Assembly: GCA_017512555.1 (NCBI GenBank)
Contig: JAFWFE010000034.1
Coordinates: forward strand, 1 to 44,582
Length of the DNA stretch: 44,582 nucleotides
Source: Solobacterium sp.
GTDB taxonomy: Bacteria; Bacillota_I; Bacilli_A; Erysipelotrichales; Erysipelotrichaceae
Direction: 5' to 3'
The position numbers and the translations under genes were made by a program. Every line of letters starts with the position of its first letter. Position 1 is the first letter of the stretch. The notes under the pieces are model-generated. The model had not been told where the DNA came from. It saw nothing but the letters and a program-made list of their open reading frames with translations, and ran no database searches. This document shows positions 1,864 to 9,046 of the stretch, one piece after another.

Positions 1864-1886
1864 AAAAAAGCGCCTTTTCAGACGCT
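1864..1886 (-). terminator. Intrinsic terminator of the ECF-DUF62 operon
   Basis: Minus-strand AGCGTC-TGAAAA-GGCGCT forms a six-pair stem followed by a run of U. The stem overlaps the TAG stop codon of the last DUF62 gene. A second weaker hairpin (GGCTG-AAA-CAGCC, 1783-1795, followed by TCAGTTTTG) may act as backup. Confidence 0.75.
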
Positions 1887-2382
1887 ATAGTTTTACGATC
1901 TCCGTGAGGTCATACTGTGGTCCGGTTTCTTCATAAGAAATCACACCGGAAGCCAGTCTGGCACCACAATACGCAAACACATCTCTGCCGTGGAAGATAT
2001 CGGACTTATCCGACCAGGGATTCCCTTTGTAGCGGTTGATCGTCTGATCAATCTCACGCACTTCGGAAACACCCACGGTATCCGCCAGTACCTGCAAGAT
2101 CCCGTTATCCGGTGTCACCACATAACATCCATTGGCTATCTTTGCCACAGATGCTTTCCTTGGTGTTCCTACACCGGGATCTACCACACTCACAAACACC
2201 GTGCCTGCAGGCCACAGCGGAATCACTTCTGCCAGATTCTCTCCGGCTTTCCTGATATCAAATTTGGGGACCTGATGCGTCAGATCAAAAACCTGCAGAG
2301 AAGGATCCACCAACATGCACATACCGGTCATTGATCCCGAAGAAGCACCTCCGAAATCTGTCTGTATTACGATATATCCCAT
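1885..2382 (-). CDS. DUF62 (SAM hydrolase) paralog 5, lacking the C-terminal domain
   Basis: A 165-residue member of the SAM hydroxide adenosyltransferase family, which converts S-adenosylmethionine to adenosine and methionine. The start is placed at MGYIVIQTDF because GGAGAAGGAG lies just upstream and the family N-terminus aligns there. All N-terminal motifs are present: QTDFGG, VDPGVGTPR (Asp68, Arg75), TPDNG, and FHGRD (His131), which together hold the Asp-Arg-His triad described for the family. The protein stops after EIVKL, where the four paralogs continue for another 100 or so residues into a beta-barrel domain. Only about 150 bases separate the stop from the next gene, and a terminator overlaps the stop, so no remnant of the missing domain remains. 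It is the last gene of the operon, four bases after paralog 4. Confidence 0.85.
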   Translation of the reverse strand: MGYIVIQTDFGGASSGSMTGMCMLVDPSLQVFDLTHQVPKFDIRKAGENLAEVIPLWPAGTVFVSVVDPGVGTPRKASVAKIANGCYVVTPDNGILQVLADTVGVSEVREIDQTINRYKGNPWSDKSDIFHGRDVFAYCGARLASGVISYEETGPQYDLTEIVKL

Positions 2383-2386
2383 TGCT

Positions 2387-3220
2387 CTACTCCTTCTCCA
2401 ACACGATCTGCCACTCTTCACCGAAGCCGATTCCGTAGGTATGGATGAAATCCCCGCGGTTGATACCGACACCGATCACACCGTCACTGCTGTTGTACAG
2501 GACTTCCTGTCCTTCGGCCACCCAGCCAAACGAAGGCTGATACGCAATCTTCTTTACCAGTATACATTCATCCTTGTGCAGGATCTTTACCAGGATTTCC
2601 TCGCCGACCCGGAAACCTGCCTCTTCAAACACAGAGATGGGAATACTGCTTTCCAGATTCCCGAATGTACGCATCATATCGGTGATGATACCGGATACTT
2701 TGCCCGGTTCACAGGTATATCCCCACTGCGGGTAGGTGACGATTTCCGAAACCGGATACTCTTCTCCTACACCTTCATAGTCAATGATTCCGGAAGCCAG
2801 TTTTGCGGCACAATACGCAAACAGATCTCTGCCGTGGAAGATACTGACTTTCTCGGTTCCTTTCAGACGATTGCGGGTCTCATCAATCACCCGGATCTGT
2901 TCAATTCCCGGATTTTCCAGCAGTGGAGTAAGCGTACCATTGTCCGGCGTGACAACATAACTGCCGTTCTTCAGCAAAGCGATGCTTGCCCGGCGGGAGG
3001 TTCCTACCCCGGGATCCACCACACTGACAAAGATCGTCCCTGAAGGCCAGTAAGGAACCAGCATGCGCAGGGAACGTCCGGCAGCCCGCACATTGAACTT
3101 CTCGATGGTATGGTTGGCGTCATAGACCTTGAGCTCGGGATCCACTTTCAGACAGGTACCACGCATGGCACTGCCCCCGCCGATACCGAAATCGGTCTGG
3201 AATACGATCAGCGGTTTCAT
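2387..3220 (-). CDS. DUF62 family SAM hydrolase, paralog 4
   Basis: A full-length 277-residue SAM hydroxide adenosyltransferase (DUF62) protein with the usual N-terminal Rossmann-like domain and C-terminal beta-barrel. Motifs visible: FQTDFG at the N-terminus, VDPGVGTSRR (Asp69, Arg76), TPDNGTLTPL, and FHGRD (His129). The Asp-Arg-His set is the one proposed to activate water for attack on C5' of SAM, so the protein is predicted to be active. The start codon overlaps the stop of paralog 3 by four bases (ATGA) and has only a weak ribosome binding site, so translation is probably coupled. The related fluorinase/chlorinase enzymes carry extra or altered active-site features that I do not recognise here, so hydrolase is the preferred call. 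Confidence 0.9.
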   Translation of the reverse strand: MKPLIVFQTDFGIGGGSAMRGTCLKVDPELKVYDANHTIEKFNVRAAGRSLRMLVPYWPSGTIFVSVVDPGVGTSRRASIALLKNGSYVVTPDNGTLTPLLENPGIEQIRVIDETRNRLKGTEKVSIFHGRDLFAYCAAKLASGIIDYEGVGEEYPVSEIVTYPQWGYTCEPGKVSGIITDMMRTFGNLESSIPISVFEEAGFRVGEEILVKILHKDECILVKKIAYQPSFGWVAEGQEVLYNSSDGVIGVGINRGDFIHTYGIGFGEEWQIVLEKE

Positions 3221-4074
3221 TCCTTGTTCACCGGTCCGATCACAACTTTATATACACTTAAGTCATATGCTTGTAACAGTTCCGGGAGTTCACGCTCACA
3301 GAAGCTGTCCTGGTTGATGGATATCTCCACATAATCATTGCTGCATTCATTCAGGATTGGTTCTCCGGGTTTTACCCAGCCGAAAGACTTATGGAACAAC
3401 ATGGTCTGATCATAAAGTACCTGATCTTCTTTCAGGATCTTTACTCTGGCCATATCTCCCACCTGAATACCAATCTCCTTGATCATCTCGTTGGGAATAG
3501 AGATGCCGGCATTGCCGAAATGATCGTGGGCAGAGGTAACTTCTCCATACGCGCAGCCATCCTGGATATATGCCTGAGGCATCGCAAAACGCACGATCTC
3601 TGAGACATCATACACAGGACCGACACCGGGATAATCAATGATTCCGGACGCAAGTCTGGCCGCGGTATACGCATAGACATCTCTGCCGTGGAAGGTATGG
3701 TGTTCACCGGAACCAGGCAGACGATTCACGCTCTCATCGATCTCACGTACTTCTGTGATCTGGTCATACAGATAACTCAGCGTGCCGTTATCCGGAGTGA
3801 TCACCACACTGCCGTTCTTCAGCATGGCTGCACAAGAGCGTCTGGGGGTGCCTACACCGGGATCCACTACACTGACAAAGATCGTCCCATCCGGCCAGTA
3901 AGACACCGTAGAGGCCAGGATACTGCCGGCCTGGCGGATATCATATTCTCTGACTTCATGGCAGAGATCATAGATGCGGATCTGGGGATCGGTCTTGACG
4001 ATTACTGCCGTCATCGAAGCAGGCAGACCGGTAGACAAACCGAAATCCGACTGCAGTACTATACAAGGCTTCAT
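3217..4074 (-). CDS. DUF62 family SAM hydrolase, paralog 3
   Basis: A full-length 285-residue DUF62 protein. Family motifs are intact: LQSDFG, VDPGVGTPRR (Asp71, Arg78), TPDNGTLSYL, and FHGRD (His129), followed by VYAYTAARLASG, which is nearly invariant among the paralogs. The C-terminal domain (SAHDHFGNAGISIPN onward) is present. Predicted to hydrolyse SAM to adenosine and methionine. It lies four bases after paralog 2 with GAGGTAG as ribosome binding site and overlaps paralog 4 by four bases. Confidence 0.9.
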   Translation of the reverse strand: MKPCIVLQSDFGLSTGLPASMTAVIVKTDPQIRIYDLCHEVREYDIRQAGSILASTVSYWPDGTIFVSVVDPGVGTPRRSCAAMLKNGSVVITPDNGTLSYLYDQITEVREIDESVNRLPGSGEHHTFHGRDVYAYTAARLASGIIDYPGVGPVYDVSEIVRFAMPQAYIQDGCAYGEVTSAHDHFGNAGISIPNEMIKEIGIQVGDMARVKILKEDQVLYDQTMLFHKSFGWVKPGEPILNECSNDYVEISINQDSFCERELPELLQAYDLSVYKVVIGPVNKE

Positions 4075-4078
4075 ACAA

Positions 4079-4885
4079 CTACCTCTTTTCTATGCGTACT
4101 TTGTATTCTCCGGGATCCTGTACCTCCAGGATCTCCGGCAGACACTTCAGAATGAAATTATCACGGTTCAGGCCAATATCCATATACCCGGAACTGCCGT
4201 TAAAAATCAGAGGTTCCCCTTCCTCTACATAACCAAACGAAGCCTGATAGGTCATCTCTTCCTGATAGACGATCTGATCATCGTGTGTAAAGGTAACCTG
4301 TACGGTATCCCCGGTACGTATACCGGTTGTCTCAAACTCATCGGTACCGATACTGAACGTGATATTCCCGAAGGTTTTCAGCAGCATGCCTACTTCCCCT
4401 TCCGCAAGCCCTTCCTCCACATGGGATGCCGGCACAGAGAACAAACAGATCTCTTCTCTTCCGGCTTTGGGACCGATTTCTTCAAAAGCCATACCGGAAG
4501 CCAGGCCGGCAGCACATCGTGCCATAGCATACTCATCATGACCGAAGATGTCATTCTGAATGTACCGGGCTTCATCTAAGCCAAAGCTTGCGGCACACAT
4601 GGTGCAGATGCCGTTATCCGGACTGATCAGGATACTGCCGGAAGATAAGCGGACAGCCAGAGGTCTTCCTTCTCCCAGTAAGGTGAGAAAGATGGTTCCG
4701 TCCGGCCAGAACGGGACACAGGTGAAAAGATAAGCTGATACCATGCGGATATTGTTTTTCTCCATACCGAGACTTTCCGCGCTGATCTGTGTATGAGGTG
4801 AAAGAGACTCGATAACACCTGCAGTACGCGCAAACAATGTACTCGGATATCCGCAGTCTGACTGGATCACAATTGCCGGTTTCAT
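4079..4885 (-). CDS. Degenerate DUF62 paralog 2 (catalytic motifs lost)
   Basis: A 268-residue protein that aligns end to end with its neighbours (QSDCG for QTDFG, FWPDGTIFLTL for YWPAGTVFVSV, SPDNG for TPDNG, a complete C-terminal domain ending near GEYKVRIEKR). The catalytic segments are gone. Where the others read VDPGVGTxRR, this copy has a shortened LLGEGRPLAV (residues 69-78), removing the Asp and Arg. FHGRD is replaced by FGHDE (114-118) with one residue missing. The frame is open and the rest is well conserved, so it looks like a maintained pseudoenzyme rather than a decaying gene. It starts one base after paralog 1, with the ribosome binding site inside that gene's end. It may act as a regulatory or structural subunit of a mixed oligomer, or bind a nucleoside-like ligand; both are inferences. 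Confidence 0.85.
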   Translation of the reverse strand: MKPAIVIQSDCGYPSTLFARTAGVIESLSPHTQISAESLGMEKNNIRMVSAYLFTCVPFWPDGTIFLTLLGEGRPLAVRLSSGSILISPDNGICTMCAASFGLDEARYIQNDIFGHDEYAMARCAAGLASGMAFEEIGPKAGREEICLFSVPASHVEEGLAEGEVGMLLKTFGNITFSIGTDEFETTGIRTGDTVQVTFTHDDQIVYQEEMTYQASFGYVEEGEPLIFNGSSGYMDIGLNRDNFILKCLPEILEVQDPGEYKVRIEKR

Positions 4886-4886
4886 C

Positions 4887-5726
4887 TTAGTCCGCCTTCT
4901 TCAAAGTCATCTTCCAGGTTGGTCCGAAGCCGATACCGTATTCTTTGGAGGCATTCCCCTGGTTGATTGCCAGCATCACGGTTCTGGTTTCGGAGCTGAA
5001 GATCAGCGGTTCACCGACTTCCACATAACCAAAAGTCTTCACGTGCGGAATCACTTGTTCAAAGACGAGGACACCGTCATGCTCCACCGTAACCAGAAGC
5101 GGATCACCGTAGCCGACACCCATCTCTCCCAACCAGGAATACGGGATATTTGTGCCTACAAGGCCAAAGTGTCCGTCTCCTTCATTGATCATGCCGGAAA
5201 TGGTATTCTCTCCCTTTTCGGGATGGATATAATCTGCCTCTACGATTTCTTCCACAGGATAGGAAGGTCCTACGCCCTCATAGCTGATGACTCCGGATGC
5301 GAGTCTTGCGCCGCAGTAGGCATAGACATCCCTGCCATGGAAGATATGGACATCTTCGGAGCCTTTCAGACGATTTACGGATTCATCGATCTCACGTACT
5401 TCCGTGATCAATCCGGCTTCTTTCAGGTATGTCAGGGTGCCGTTATCCGGGGTGACGATATACTGGTCTGTACAAAGATGTGCCACACAACTTCTGCGGG
5501 ATGTGCCTACTCCGGGATCCACCACGCTGACAAAGACAGTGCCGGCAGGCCAGTACGGATATAAATACATCAGGGAATCAGAAGCGTCCAGAACATTGAA
5601 CGCAACTACGGCATGATTGCCGTCACTGACTTTCAGATTTGGATCGACCATGGCGCATACACCATGCATGGCACTGACGGATAAGGAACCGGTGCCAAAA
5701 TCTGTCTGCATTACCAAATGACTCAT
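4887..5726 (-). CDS. DUF62 family SAM hydrolase, paralog 1
   Basis: A full-length 279-residue SAM hydroxide adenosyltransferase (DUF62) protein and the first of five tandem paralogs in transcription order. The motifs are QTDFG (Asp9), VDPGVGTSRR (Asp70, Arg77), TPDNGTLTYL and FHGRD (His130), so the proposed catalytic triad is complete. The C-terminal domain (GHFGLVGTNIPYSWL onward) ends with FGPTWKMTL. It begins ten bases after the ECF T-component gene with a clear GGAGG site, so it is translated from the same message as the transporter. Adenosine and methionine are the expected products from SAM. Confidence 0.9.
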   Translation of the reverse strand: MSHLVMQTDFGTGSLSVSAMHGVCAMVDPNLKVSDGNHAVVAFNVLDASDSLMYLYPYWPAGTVFVSVVDPGVGTSRRSCVAHLCTDQYIVTPDNGTLTYLKEAGLITEVREIDESVNRLKGSEDVHIFHGRDVYAYCGARLASGVISYEGVGPSYPVEEIVEADYIHPEKGENTISGMINEGDGHFGLVGTNIPYSWLGEMGVGYGDPLLVTVEHDGVLVFEQVIPHVKTFGYVEVGEPLIFSSETRTVMLAINQGNASKEYGIGFGPTWKMTLKKAD

Positions 5727-5736
5727 TTCTGCCTCC

Positions 5737-6657
5737 TTATTTCTTAAACCACTTCATGAAGAACAAAGTGTCAAACACATTGATGTGCTGAATCTCGTCC
5801 GGCTGAAGCCACGGGCACCAGAATTTTGCCGGCCACGGGTTAATGAACCGGTACATGACCACGTAGTAGATCGTCAGTAACAGAAGTACAACAGTCAGGA
5901 TACGGATGATCCGGTCTCCCTTGGACGCATCATGTTCGGCATACCATGTACGTTTCTTATTCTTGCCGTAACCGCGCAGATCCATGGCGTTGGCGATGTT
6001 TCCGACTTTGCCGAACGCGGTGAAGATCATCGGCACCAGCAGGATCACGGTATTCTTCAGTTTCTTCCAGAGACTGACTTTCTTCCCGGTCAGTTCCAGT
6101 CCGCGCATCATCATACTGTTGCGGATATTGATGAAATCGTTGGCAATATCCGGGATCGTGCGGTAAGCCAGAGATACGATCGTACATACCTTGTACGGGA
6201 AACCGCACTTGTTTAAACCGGAAGCAAATTCCGAAGGTGTCGTCGCCAGCGCAAATGCCATGACTGACGCAAACGAAGCTGTCCTCTTGACGAATACCAC
6301 AAAGATATACCAGAGGAATTCCTTGGACAGGTAGAACCTGCCGCTCTGCCAGAGGATATGTTCCGCGCCGACGTTGTTCAGACCGGCTGCCGGACTGACG
6401 ACAAACAACATGATATTACCAATCAGCGTGACCGTCACAAACGTGATCAGGAACATGATCGTAATCGGCTTGTAGTTGGGCTTCATGGAGATTACTTCCG
6501 CGACATTGATCAGTAATAACGGTATCAGGATACGGATATCAAACGTACTGATGATTGCCGCTGTCATCACCATGAATAACGCCACCTTGGTAAATCCTGT
6601 CAGTTTATGCAGGAAGGTAGGTCCCGGTGTATAGTTGATCACAAAACGGTTATTCAT
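5737..6657 (-). CDS. ECF transporter transmembrane (T) component
   Basis: A 306-residue integral membrane protein of the EcfT/CbiQ family. It has several hydrophobic segments and, in the cytoplasmic coupling helices, the two Ala/Met-Arg-Gly motifs that dock into the ATPases: MMMRGLEL (about residue 184) and MDLRGYG (about residue 231). EcfT links ATP hydrolysis to movement of the substrate-binding S protein. The gene overlaps the ATPase gene by eight bases and is followed ten bases later by the first DUF62 gene, so transporter and hydrolases are one operon. The C-terminus is longer than usual, with an extra hydrophobic helix and a Trp-rich tail (PWPAKFWCPWLQP). Confidence 0.9.
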   Translation of the reverse strand: MNNRFVINYTPGPTFLHKLTGFTKVALFMVMTAAIISTFDIRILIPLLLINVAEVISMKPNYKPITIMFLITFVTVTLIGNIMLFVVSPAAGLNNVGAEHILWQSGRFYLSKEFLWYIFVVFVKRTASFASVMAFALATTPSEFASGLNKCGFPYKVCTIVSLAYRTIPDIANDFINIRNSMMMRGLELTGKKVSLWKKLKNTVILLVPMIFTAFGKVGNIANAMDLRGYGKNKKRTWYAEHDASKGDRIIRILTVVLLLLTIYYVVMYRFINPWPAKFWCPWLQPDEIQHINVFDTLFFMKWFKK

Positions 6658-8362
6658 GTGTTTTCACCGTCCTTTCGTATTCAATGAAATGACGGATCGC
6701 CATTTCGGGATCGATGCCCAGGCGTACCGCTAACGTATACAGAGAGGTCTGTTTCAGGTGTGCCTTGCGGATCGTCTCTTCGTCTGAGAGTACGGTGAAT
6801 ACCTTGTCGGAGCGGATCATCTTGCCATCCGCAAAGACAATTGCCCGGTCGGTATTCTCAATTGCCAGGTGCATGTCATGCGTGATAAACAGGATCGTCT
6901 TTCCGTATTCCTTGTTCAGAGTATTGACGAAGTTCATGATATCCGTATAACTCTTGTAATCCTGTCCTGCCGTAGGTTCATCCAGGATCAGAATATCCGG
7001 TTCCAGAGCCATCATGGCCGCAACCGTAACTCTCTTCTTCTGTCCGTAACTGACAGAATCTACCGGCCAGTTACGCATCTTGTATAAACCGCAGGTCTCC
7101 AGAGCTTTGTTTACCTTCTCATCGATATATTCCTGTGGTTTCTTGCGAAGAGTTAGTGCCAACCCCACTTCATCCTTGATGATATCCTTGACGATCATCG
7201 TATTGGGATCCTGCATGACATAGCCTACGTTCTCACCGATCTCTTTGATGGTCATTCCGCTCTCATCCGTACCGTTGAGATAGATCTTACCCTCCGTCGG
7301 GCGGATCGTGCCGCAGATCAGTTTCGCGGCTGTGGATTTACCGGCGCCGTTCTTCCCGATAATAGCTACACGTTCACCTTTGTAGATCTCCAGGTTGATG
7401 TCTTCCAGGACATTCCTGCCGCCGTCATAGTTGAAGCTCACATGTTCAAAGCGGAGCACAGGCTCGTGTTTCTCTTCAATTACCGGTTCTCTTTCTTCAG
7501 TGAAGAAGTTCTTCAGCTTCGCGGTATTCTCTCCGGACAATTCCAGACTGTTAAGGTCAGACAGATTCTTAACGGAATCCAGGTCACATCCGGCGTATTT
7601 CATCGCTGTCAGATACAGCGGTTCACGGATCCCGTACGTCTTCAGAAGATCCGATTTCAGTAATTCATCCGGAGTGACATCTGCCTGTATGGTTCCCTCT
7701 CCCATCAGGATAATGCGGTCTACGGAACGGTAGAGCATATCTTCCAGACGGTGTTCGATCACGATCACGGTTTTTTCTTCACTGCGGCAGAGATCATCAA
7801 TCAAGGCTACGGCAGTCATTCCCATCTGCGGATCCAGAGAAGCCAGAGGTTCATCAAAGATCAGTACCTGGACATGGTTGCCGAAGACACCGGCAATCGC
7901 CACCTTCTGTTTCTGTCCTCCGGACAACTGGAATGGTACATGATCCACGAACTCACGCATACCTACCATATTCAGGTTCTTATCGATAAACGGAAGCATA
8001 TCACTGCGCGGCATGACATCGTTTTCCATGACGAAAGCGACATCTTCCGCCACCGTCAGTCCCACGAACTGGGCATCACTGTCCTGTAATACCGTGCCTA
8101 CCGTATTGGATAACTTGAAGATGGAGGATTTCTTCGTCTCTGTATTGTTTACTATACAGCTGCCCTTGATTTCTCCCTCAAAAGAGAACGGAATCAAGCC
8201 GTTAATACAGTTACACAGTGTGGATTTACCACTTCCCGAGGCTCCCAGGATCAGGATCTTTTCTCCCGGGTAGATCTTCAGATTGATGTCATGAAGAGTC
8301 GGATTCTTCTGTGTCTTATAACGGAAACTGAAATCCTTGAATTCTATGATTGGTTCTTTCAT
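6650..8362 (-). CDS. ECF transporter duplicated ATPase (EcfA-EcfA' fusion)
   Basis: A 570-residue protein containing two ABC ATPase domains in one chain. Domain 1 has Walker A GASGSGKST (40-48), signature LSGGQ (146-150) and Walker B IFDEP (168-172). Domain 2 has Walker A GKNGAGKST (336-344), signature VSYGQ (437-441) and Walker B LILDEPTAG (458-466). The second signature departs from SGGQ, a kind of asymmetry seen in paired ECF ATPases. Fused double ATPases of this sort are typical of dedicated (group I-like) ECF systems such as the YkoD type, where the S, A and T genes form one operon, as here. The ribosome binding site is AAAGGG. A 102-base gap with two hairpins separates it from the S-component gene. 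Confidence 0.93.
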   Translation of the reverse strand: MKEPIIEFKDFSFRYKTQKNPTLHDINLKIYPGEKILILGASGSGKSTLCNCINGLIPFSFEGEIKGSCIVNNTETKKSSIFKLSNTVGTVLQDSDAQFVGLTVAEDVAFVMENDVMPRSDMLPFIDKNLNMVGMREFVDHVPFQLSGGQKQKVAIAGVFGNHVQVLIFDEPLASLDPQMGMTAVALIDDLCRSEEKTVIVIEHRLEDMLYRSVDRIILMGEGTIQADVTPDELLKSDLLKTYGIREPLYLTAMKYAGCDLDSVKNLSDLNSLELSGENTAKLKNFFTEEREPVIEEKHEPVLRFEHVSFNYDGGRNVLEDINLEIYKGERVAIIGKNGAGKSTAAKLICGTIRPTEGKIYLNGTDESGMTIKEIGENVGYVMQDPNTMIVKDIIKDEVGLALTLRKKPQEYIDEKVNKALETCGLYKMRNWPVDSVSYGQKKRVTVAAMMALEPDILILDEPTAGQDYKSYTDIMNFVNTLNKEYGKTILFITHDMHLAIENTDRAIVFADGKMIRSDKVFTVLSDEETIRKAHLKQTSLYTLAVRLGIDPEMAIRHFIEYERTVKTHE

Positions 8363-8389
8363 AAGATTCCCTTTCTGTAAATGAAGAAT

Positions 8390-8444
8390 GCTTCCACATC
8401 AGCGGAAGCATACCGTGAACGAGGCCATAGGCTTTCGCTTACGG
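8390..8444 (-). other. Two hairpins between S-component and ATPase genes
   Basis: Two inverted repeats lie back to back. In the first, at 8390-8409, GCTTCC and GGAAGC form a six-pair stem around an eight-base loop. In the second, at 8413-8444, CCGT and ACGG arms extend through a longer imperfect stem to a GCC-ATA-GGC tip. Neither is followed by a clean U-run, so they look more like processing, stability or attenuation structures that set the ratio of S component to ATPase than like full terminators. Confidence 0.45.
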
Positions 8445-8464
8445 TCTTCTTTTGGATTATAGTC

Positions 8465-9046
8465 TTAGTTCTCTTCAGTAAGATTCGTACGGCTTGCGTA
8501 ACGGTTAGCCAGCAATTTGATTACCGGGATACCGATGACACACTCTACGAGGATATTACCGACACTGGCATATACACCCTGCAGAAGCGATACGTTCATA
8601 TCTCCGCCTTCAAAGACAACGGTCAATACCTGAGCTACGACACCGAAAGCAATCGCGTTACCGATGATAACACATACGACATAGATGATCATATGCTTGA
8701 CATCAAACTTGCCTTCCGTAATATATGCGCCGTACAGAGGCAGAGCACCGATAAACAGAGAAGCTACCGCGTTGGCAATCGACCATGCCGGATACATTCC
8801 CCATCCGCCGATCAGGTCTGCGATCGTATTGCCTACACCAGCCGCAACCGCTGCCGGAACAGGTCCGAACATCGCGCCGACAACGACCGGTACGATCATC
8901 GCTGTTGTCAATGATGTGTTAGTGAAAATAGGAATACTGCCGTAGTTCATCAGGACACCGAATAATGCGGCACCGATAGCAACGGTAACGATCGTTCTGG
9001 TGTTCCATACGCCTAAGAGTTTTTCTCCAAAGCTTTTTTCTTCCAT
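8465..9046 (-). CDS. ECF transporter substrate-binding S component (UPF0397-like)
   Basis: A 193-residue hydrophobic protein with about five to six membrane segments. The N-terminal stretch TVAIGAALFGVLMNYG followed by VVGAMFGPVPAAVAAGVGNTIADL has the look of the UPF0397 group of ECF S components: an ATPase-docking helix 1 with small residues, then a GxxxGP-type loop. S components bind the vitamin or metabolite and determine specificity. As I recall, UPF0397 proteins occur with double ATPases and have been linked by comparative genomics to methionine-regulated transport; I cannot verify this here. It is the first gene of the operon leading to five SAM hydrolase paralogs, which supports a methionine- or adenosine-related substrate. 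Start chosen for AGGAGGGG six bases upstream. Confidence 0.85.
   Translation of the reverse strand: MEEKSFGEKLLGVWNTRTIVTVAIGAALFGVLMNYGSIPIFTNTSLTTAMIVPVVVGAMFGPVPAAVAAGVGNTIADLIGGWGMYPAWSIANAVASLFIGALPLYGAYITEGKFDVKHMIIYVVCVIIGNAIAFGVVAQVLTVVFEGGDMNVSLLQGVYASVGNILVECVIGIPVIKLLANRYASRTNLTEEN

Follow-up and report, generated by a model that had tools for sequence, protein, structure and literature searches.

An ECF importer operon with five co-conserved, non-equivalent DUF62 paralogs in Solobacterium and its relatives, and its proposed link to methionine and SAM limitation

The DUF62 proteins, or SAM hydroxide adenosyltransferases (PF01887 plus PF20257; PH0463, StDUF62 and MJ1651), are known as single homomeric enzymes. 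Their role in the cell is disputed, and one recent study argues that hydrolysing (R,S)-SAM is perhaps not what they do under physiological conditions (PMC12120602). In both DUF62 and fluorinase structures the active site lies between two protomers (PMC12120602, PMC1282579), and in fluorinase the C-terminal domain contributes Asn215 and Ser269/Arg270, which bind adenine and the methionine carboxylate; it has been speculated that the interface site may need a loop found in fluorinase alone, and that SAM might be bound in the monomer by the other relatives (PMC1282579). Fluorinase FlA and chlorinase SalL have the same fold but are halogenases without the His-Arg-Asp triad of DUF62. On the transport side, one of the closest described systems is Mts, a methionine-regulated ECF transporter with MtsA as its S component, together with a double ATPase and a T component. 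In Streptococcus suis a gene annotated as 'RNA polymerase subunit delta' (SSU0361) adjoins that of MtsA (SSU0362) (PMC9423846), and the same name is carried by PDB entry 7ccg, a DUF62-fold protein, a likeness by name. We found no paper in the open-access literature on an association of ECF importers with DUF62.

The locus considered here lies in the window, by which we mean the whole 44,582-nucleotide stretch of Solobacterium sp. DNA analysed, contig C55 of an assembly with 100 contigs and 2.58 Mb. Gene calls and domain searches place eight minus-strand genes between positions 9046 and 1885 (Table 1), in the order S component, fused double ATPase, T component and five DUF62 paralogs, D1 to D5. 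A preliminary description had proposed this arrangement on one strand, and all eight genes are found where it had placed them. The recomputed intergenic gaps, from S to D5, are 102, -8, 10, 1, 4, -4 and 4 bases, in agreement with the same description, which had also noted a terminator after the last gene; a terminator-like hairpin with a T run lies there, at 1886-1869. Its view of the whole as a single operon holds, and a separate DUF62 transcript is rejected, there being no promoter-sized gap between the transporter and DUF62 genes. For D5, the conserved start is the ATG at 2382; the longest open reading frame would begin at a GTG at 2472. Positions 1-331 hold a minus-strand 16S rRNA gene, cut by the contig start.

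Table 1. Features of the operon, in the direction of transcription, with their positions in the window.
Feature	Position	Strand	Evidence
S component of ECF importer, PF07155, 193 aa	8465..9046	-	domain search, AlphaFold model
Hairpin with weak T run, inside the 102-base S/ATPase gap	8388..8411	-	hairpin scan
Fused double ECF ATPase, two ABC_tran domains and DUF3744 linker, 570 aa	6650..8362	-	domain searches
T (transmembrane coupling) component, CbiQ family, 306 aa	5737..6657	-	domain searches
D1, DUF62 (SAM_HAT) paralog, triad intact, altered C-domain	4887..5726	-	domain search, alignment
D2, DUF62 paralog without triad, C-domain ligand residues kept	4079..4885	-	alignment, AlphaFold
D3, complete DUF62 paralog	3217..4074	-	domain search, alignment
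D4, complete DUF62 paralog	2387..3220	-	domain search, alignment
D5, DUF62 N-domain only, 165 aa, triad intact	1885..2382	-	domain search, alignment
Terminator-like hairpin with T run at operon end	1869..1886	-	hairpin scan

With an S component, two ABC ATPase domains and a CbiQ-type T component in one operon, the first three genes encode an ECF importer. The AlphaFold model of S (pLDDT 89, pTM 0.86) has as its top structural matches the ECF S components 4hzu_S, ThiT, RibU and FolT (VIA-align, Z 12-15), so that the predicted fold is that of an S component; structure comparison does not identify the ligand. A PDB sequence search with S gave zero matches, and the NCBIfam label for its family is 'riboflavin transporter', which leaves riboflavin a conceivable ligand and weighs against a methionine-type one. 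The DUF62 operons of L038, L040, L044, L054, L055, L080-L082 and L087 have S components of another subtype, a divergent one with 25-33% identity, and hence the DUF62 link is not bound to a single S subtype. The resemblance to Mts extends to the composition of the importer and, judging from some relatives of the array, perhaps to methionine/SAM-linked regulation, but Mts has one adjacent gene of the shared name only, and we liken the two by annotation rather than by S-component sequence.

The preliminary description had held that the five copies differ in activity state, and the residues bear this out (PH0463 numbering, with the reference sequence taken from HMMER output). D1-D4 score above the curated cut-offs for both SAM_HAT_N and SAM_HAT_C, and D5 for the N domain only. 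In the alignment the Asp68-Arg75-His127 triad is present in D1, D3, D4 and D5 and absent from D2, which reaches just 52 bits against SAM_HAT_N with both catalytic loops missing; the triad is lost in all 27 D2 orthologs, where the DPGVGT and RLKG..FHGRD stretches are shorter or gone. Because it lacks the triad, we class D2, on its sequence, as a non-catalytic DUF62-fold paralog and not as a SAM hydrolase. Its C-domain keeps N183 (27/27) and S226 (26/26), residues that we take, from our own alignment and the spacing of the fluorinase motifs, to be the equivalents of fluorinase Asn215 and Ser269; the Asn and Ser positions are common to D2-D4 and the halogenases. D1 retains D68, R75 and H127, with N183 replaced by L and S226 by E in 21 of 21 in-operon orthologs. 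D3 and D4 are complete (25 sequences each, a single D3 having G183), and D5 is a lone N-domain in every locus with a contig long enough to include it, the C-domain being absent in 24/24 orthologs and the triad intact in 23 of them. The paralogs are specialised at fixed positions, in residue patterns that hardly vary from locus to locus. Membership in the SAM-dependent halogenases was considered and rejected, scores being 30-72 bits against the TIGR04507 cut-off of 400 and the triad being present in D1, D3, D4 and D5.

All five paralogs are under purifying selection. Between the window and G161, dN/dS is 0.05-0.12 for D1-D5, and between G160 and G162 it is 0-0.08 (Nei-Gojobori). In the complete paralogs and D1 the N-domain is the more conserved half (N/C identity 0.83/0.62 for D1, 0.82/0.75 for D3 and 0.77/0.57 for D4), whereas in D2 the pattern is reversed (N-domain 0.48, C-domain 0.69), as expected if only the D2 C-domain still acts on a ligand. 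D2 is nevertheless predicted as a full DUF62 fold (AlphaFold, pLDDT 92), with VIA Z scores of 25-30 to DUF62, SalL and fluorinase structures, of which 25-27 to the halogenases. The five paralogs of the window share 28-55% protein identity pairwise, which rules out a recent tandem or assembly duplication; the preliminary description had named near-identical copies as the observation that would undo it.

Within the family, DUF62 genes were found in 51 of 146 sampled genomes, mostly as two copies ~840 bases apart. The expectation of one or two DUF62 genes per genome is thus roughly right for the genomes that bear them, most of which have two, as a tandem pair behind an ECF operon, but many genomes have none. 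In these loci S-AA-T precedes the two DUF62 genes, and a PepV-like M20 peptidase often lies in the middle. Like the five-gene array, these Erysipelotrichaceae pair operons join the same importer type to asymmetric paralogs, the T-proximal copy being usually of the E226 type and its partner of the S183/S226 type; unlike it, they have two full-length DUF62 genes, no triad-less D2 and no N-only D5, and often a dipeptidase-like M20 gene. Since the pair operons are also asymmetric, asymmetry is a general feature, on which the five-gene form builds. PepV/Sapep-like M20 dipeptidases of this kind (L043:5919-7271 and similar) are part of many ECF-DUF62 pair operons, a hint that what is imported might contain a peptide or amide bond. 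In L040 (G086:C106) the ECF-DUF62 locus forms a perfect inverted duplication on a single contig, probably an assembly artefact.

The degenerate D2, which marks the five-gene form, is present in 12 of 273 family genomes, and a D2 profile searched against 84,980 species genomes returned 27 loci, several of them contigs already found. In all there are 27 distinct D2 loci (26 and the window), in Solobacterium and other Erysipelotrichaceae, Oscillospiraceae, other Clostridia, Mageeibacillus and Christensenellaceae MAGs; the nearest named relative at this locus is a Solobacterium MAG from goat jejunum (L088), whose D2 is 94% identical to that of the window, which makes a gut member of the Erysipelotrichaceae the likely source of the window. 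The order S-AA-T-D1-D2-D3-D4-D5 is kept in all 27, as far as the contigs extend, except that D1 is absent in five. In trees the five positions form separate ortholog groups, D4 being the least firmly resolved, and sequences from Erysipelotrichaceae and Oscillospiraceae intermingle, which suggests that the whole operon has been transferred between lineages.

The fate of D1 is instructive. In one lineage (L075-L077) it is fused to D2, and in the five Clostridia loci mentioned above (L106-L110) it is missing from the operon. In three genomes, G632, G634 and G635, the sole other DUF62 gene is unlinked and carries the L183/E226 signature of D1, with which it groups in the tree (support 100/95). In the MAG G633 the extra DUF62 copy is of the housekeeping type, and a search of the MAG G636 for a D1 outside the operon found none. 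G637-G640 have exactly five DUF62 copies, all inside the array. Fixed order and specialisation across two bacterial classes, together with the D1-D2 fusion and the retention of unlinked D1 genes, uphold the earlier suggestion of a dedicated machine.

Evidence on what such a machine might act upon comes from the neighbourhood of related operons. A SAM riboswitch lies immediately upstream of S in G116, which has the five-gene array, and in G216, which has a pair with M20; in G019 this position is taken by metK. T-box leaders stand beside MetN/MetI/MetQ-type genes no more than ~5 kb from the operon in L043, L044, L055, L071 and L083, an assignment at the level of T-box class. Against this stands that neither the window nor most other array loci showed a recognisable SAM riboswitch; a Guanidine-I hit in the window's leader was dismissed as a chance match from a weak Rfam scan (14.6 bits, E 4.1). 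On the strength of these riboswitch, metK and T-box metNIQ neighbours we tie the system to methionine/SAM limitation, and favour a role in taking up and cleaving a SAM-like compound, the substrate being inferred. SAM riboswitches normally repress genes at high SAM, and the wasteful destruction of cellular SAM is for that reason unlikely to be what the operon is for, and less in keeping with such control than the cleavage of something imported.

We therefore propose an operon for uptake and cleavage under methionine/SAM limitation, in which the ECF importer would take up a sulfonium or adenosyl compound that is SAM-like or otherwise derived from methionine. The five DUF62 paralogs, produced in fixed order with near-zero gaps, would join as an obligate hetero-oligomer that cleaves the imported compound to a methionine-type product and adenosine. 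The complex, the hydrolytic chemistry and the substrate are inferred, and the proposal as a whole seems to us evenly balanced between right and wrong. Catalytic N-domains would come from D1, D3, D4 and D5, and canonical C-domains from D2, D3 and D4; the altered C-domain of D1 may contact another end of the substrate, or have a part in assembly. D2, with a dead N-domain and a live C-domain, and D5, with a live N-domain and no C-domain, would be complementary half-enzymes, given that neither alone can build an interface site, D2 for want of the triad and D5 for want of the C-domain. The more specific version, an importer-coupled split enzyme in which D2 and D5 complete each other's interface sites within an obligate hetero-oligomer devoted to an imported sulfonium or adenosyl nutrient, we put forward tentatively. 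Joint action is favoured by joint retention, fixed order, near-zero gaps, the D1-D2 fusion and the D1 genes kept outside the operon. Of the earlier suggestions, the evidence now leans towards two, mixed oligomers and the scavenging of a sulfonium or adenosyl compound brought in by the importer.

Two points weigh against the proposal: the complete appearance of D3 and D4 means that, on their sequences, these two could act alone as homotrimers, and the binding of SAM in the monomer has been put forward, as a speculation, for members other than fluorinase (PMC1282579). In the first rival reading the array would be five independent enzymes or binding proteins, each handling a different adenosyl or sulfonium compound (MTA, decarboxylated SAM or, for repair, (R,S)-SAM are examples), while D2 and D5 would be binders or chaperones that do no catalysis. 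The divergence of the paralogs, the group-by-group variation at the C-domain carboxylate and adenine positions and the hydrolysis of (R,S)-SAM by StDUF62 all suit such a division of labour, but no standard site is possible from D5 or D2 alone, and strict joint retention, fixed order, the D1-D2 fusion and the keeping of unlinked D1 speak for a common task; we consider independence unlikely, if worth a hearing. A mixed oligomer might instead bind SAM or adenosine and regulate the importer, catalysis being secondary. The constraint on the ligand-side C-domain of the non-catalytic D2 would be explained in this way, and in vitro the assembly of DUF62 trimers is promoted by adenosine (PMC12120602); against such sensing, four of the five paralogs keep a complete triad under strong purifying selection, no contact between DUF62 and ECF proteins is known and a regulatory domain is absent, which makes it rather improbable.

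The preliminary description had also raised SAM depletion against restriction or phage methylation, and SAM hydrolysis does in principle limit methylation. The context of the operons tells against it: two related operons open with a SAM riboswitch, others lie beside metK or metNIQ, the remaining flanking genes are housekeeping ones, and control by SAM starvation runs contrary to the needs of a SAM-destroying defence. We regard such a role as very improbable. A tandem duplication that is selfish or in decay, and whose members share no function, might be suspected from the tandem layout and two degenerate members, but is hardly credible; pseudogene decay is ruled out by the dN/dS values and the gene order shared by 27 loci across families, as well as by the deep ortholog groups.

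The component families are already known. D1-D4 have both Pfam domains of DUF62, and the fold is the same throughout; what is new is the arrangement, in which an ECF importer is followed by five DUF62 subunits that are conserved together without being equivalent and that include complementary half-enzymes, one subunit being triad-less, one without a C-domain and one with an altered pocket, where known members of the family act as single homomers. If our proposal of a mixed complex is correct, it would be, to our knowledge, the first hetero-oligomeric DUF62 enzyme, and would show a homotrimeric enzyme evolving into non-interchangeable half-enzymes. Five specialised subunits with a dedicated importer, under a SAM riboswitch in some relatives, provide a concrete, testable setting for the role of DUF62; uptake and cleavage as proposed would assign the family a definite role in physiology, and would reveal a nutrient route, so far uncharacterised, in Bacillota of the gut and rumen.

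The genome of the window has a sixth, unlinked DUF62 gene of the housekeeping (S183/S226) type (G000:C64:12264-13046; L037:8265-9104), which adjoins MetN/MetI/MetQ-like genes and an amidohydrolase. The MetQ-like lipoprotein on the same contig (L037:11250-12197, G000:C64) and another in L071 (3629-4546, G149) look circularly permuted: in an alignment with the ordinary MetQ L083:4345-5163, the two halves of each change places.
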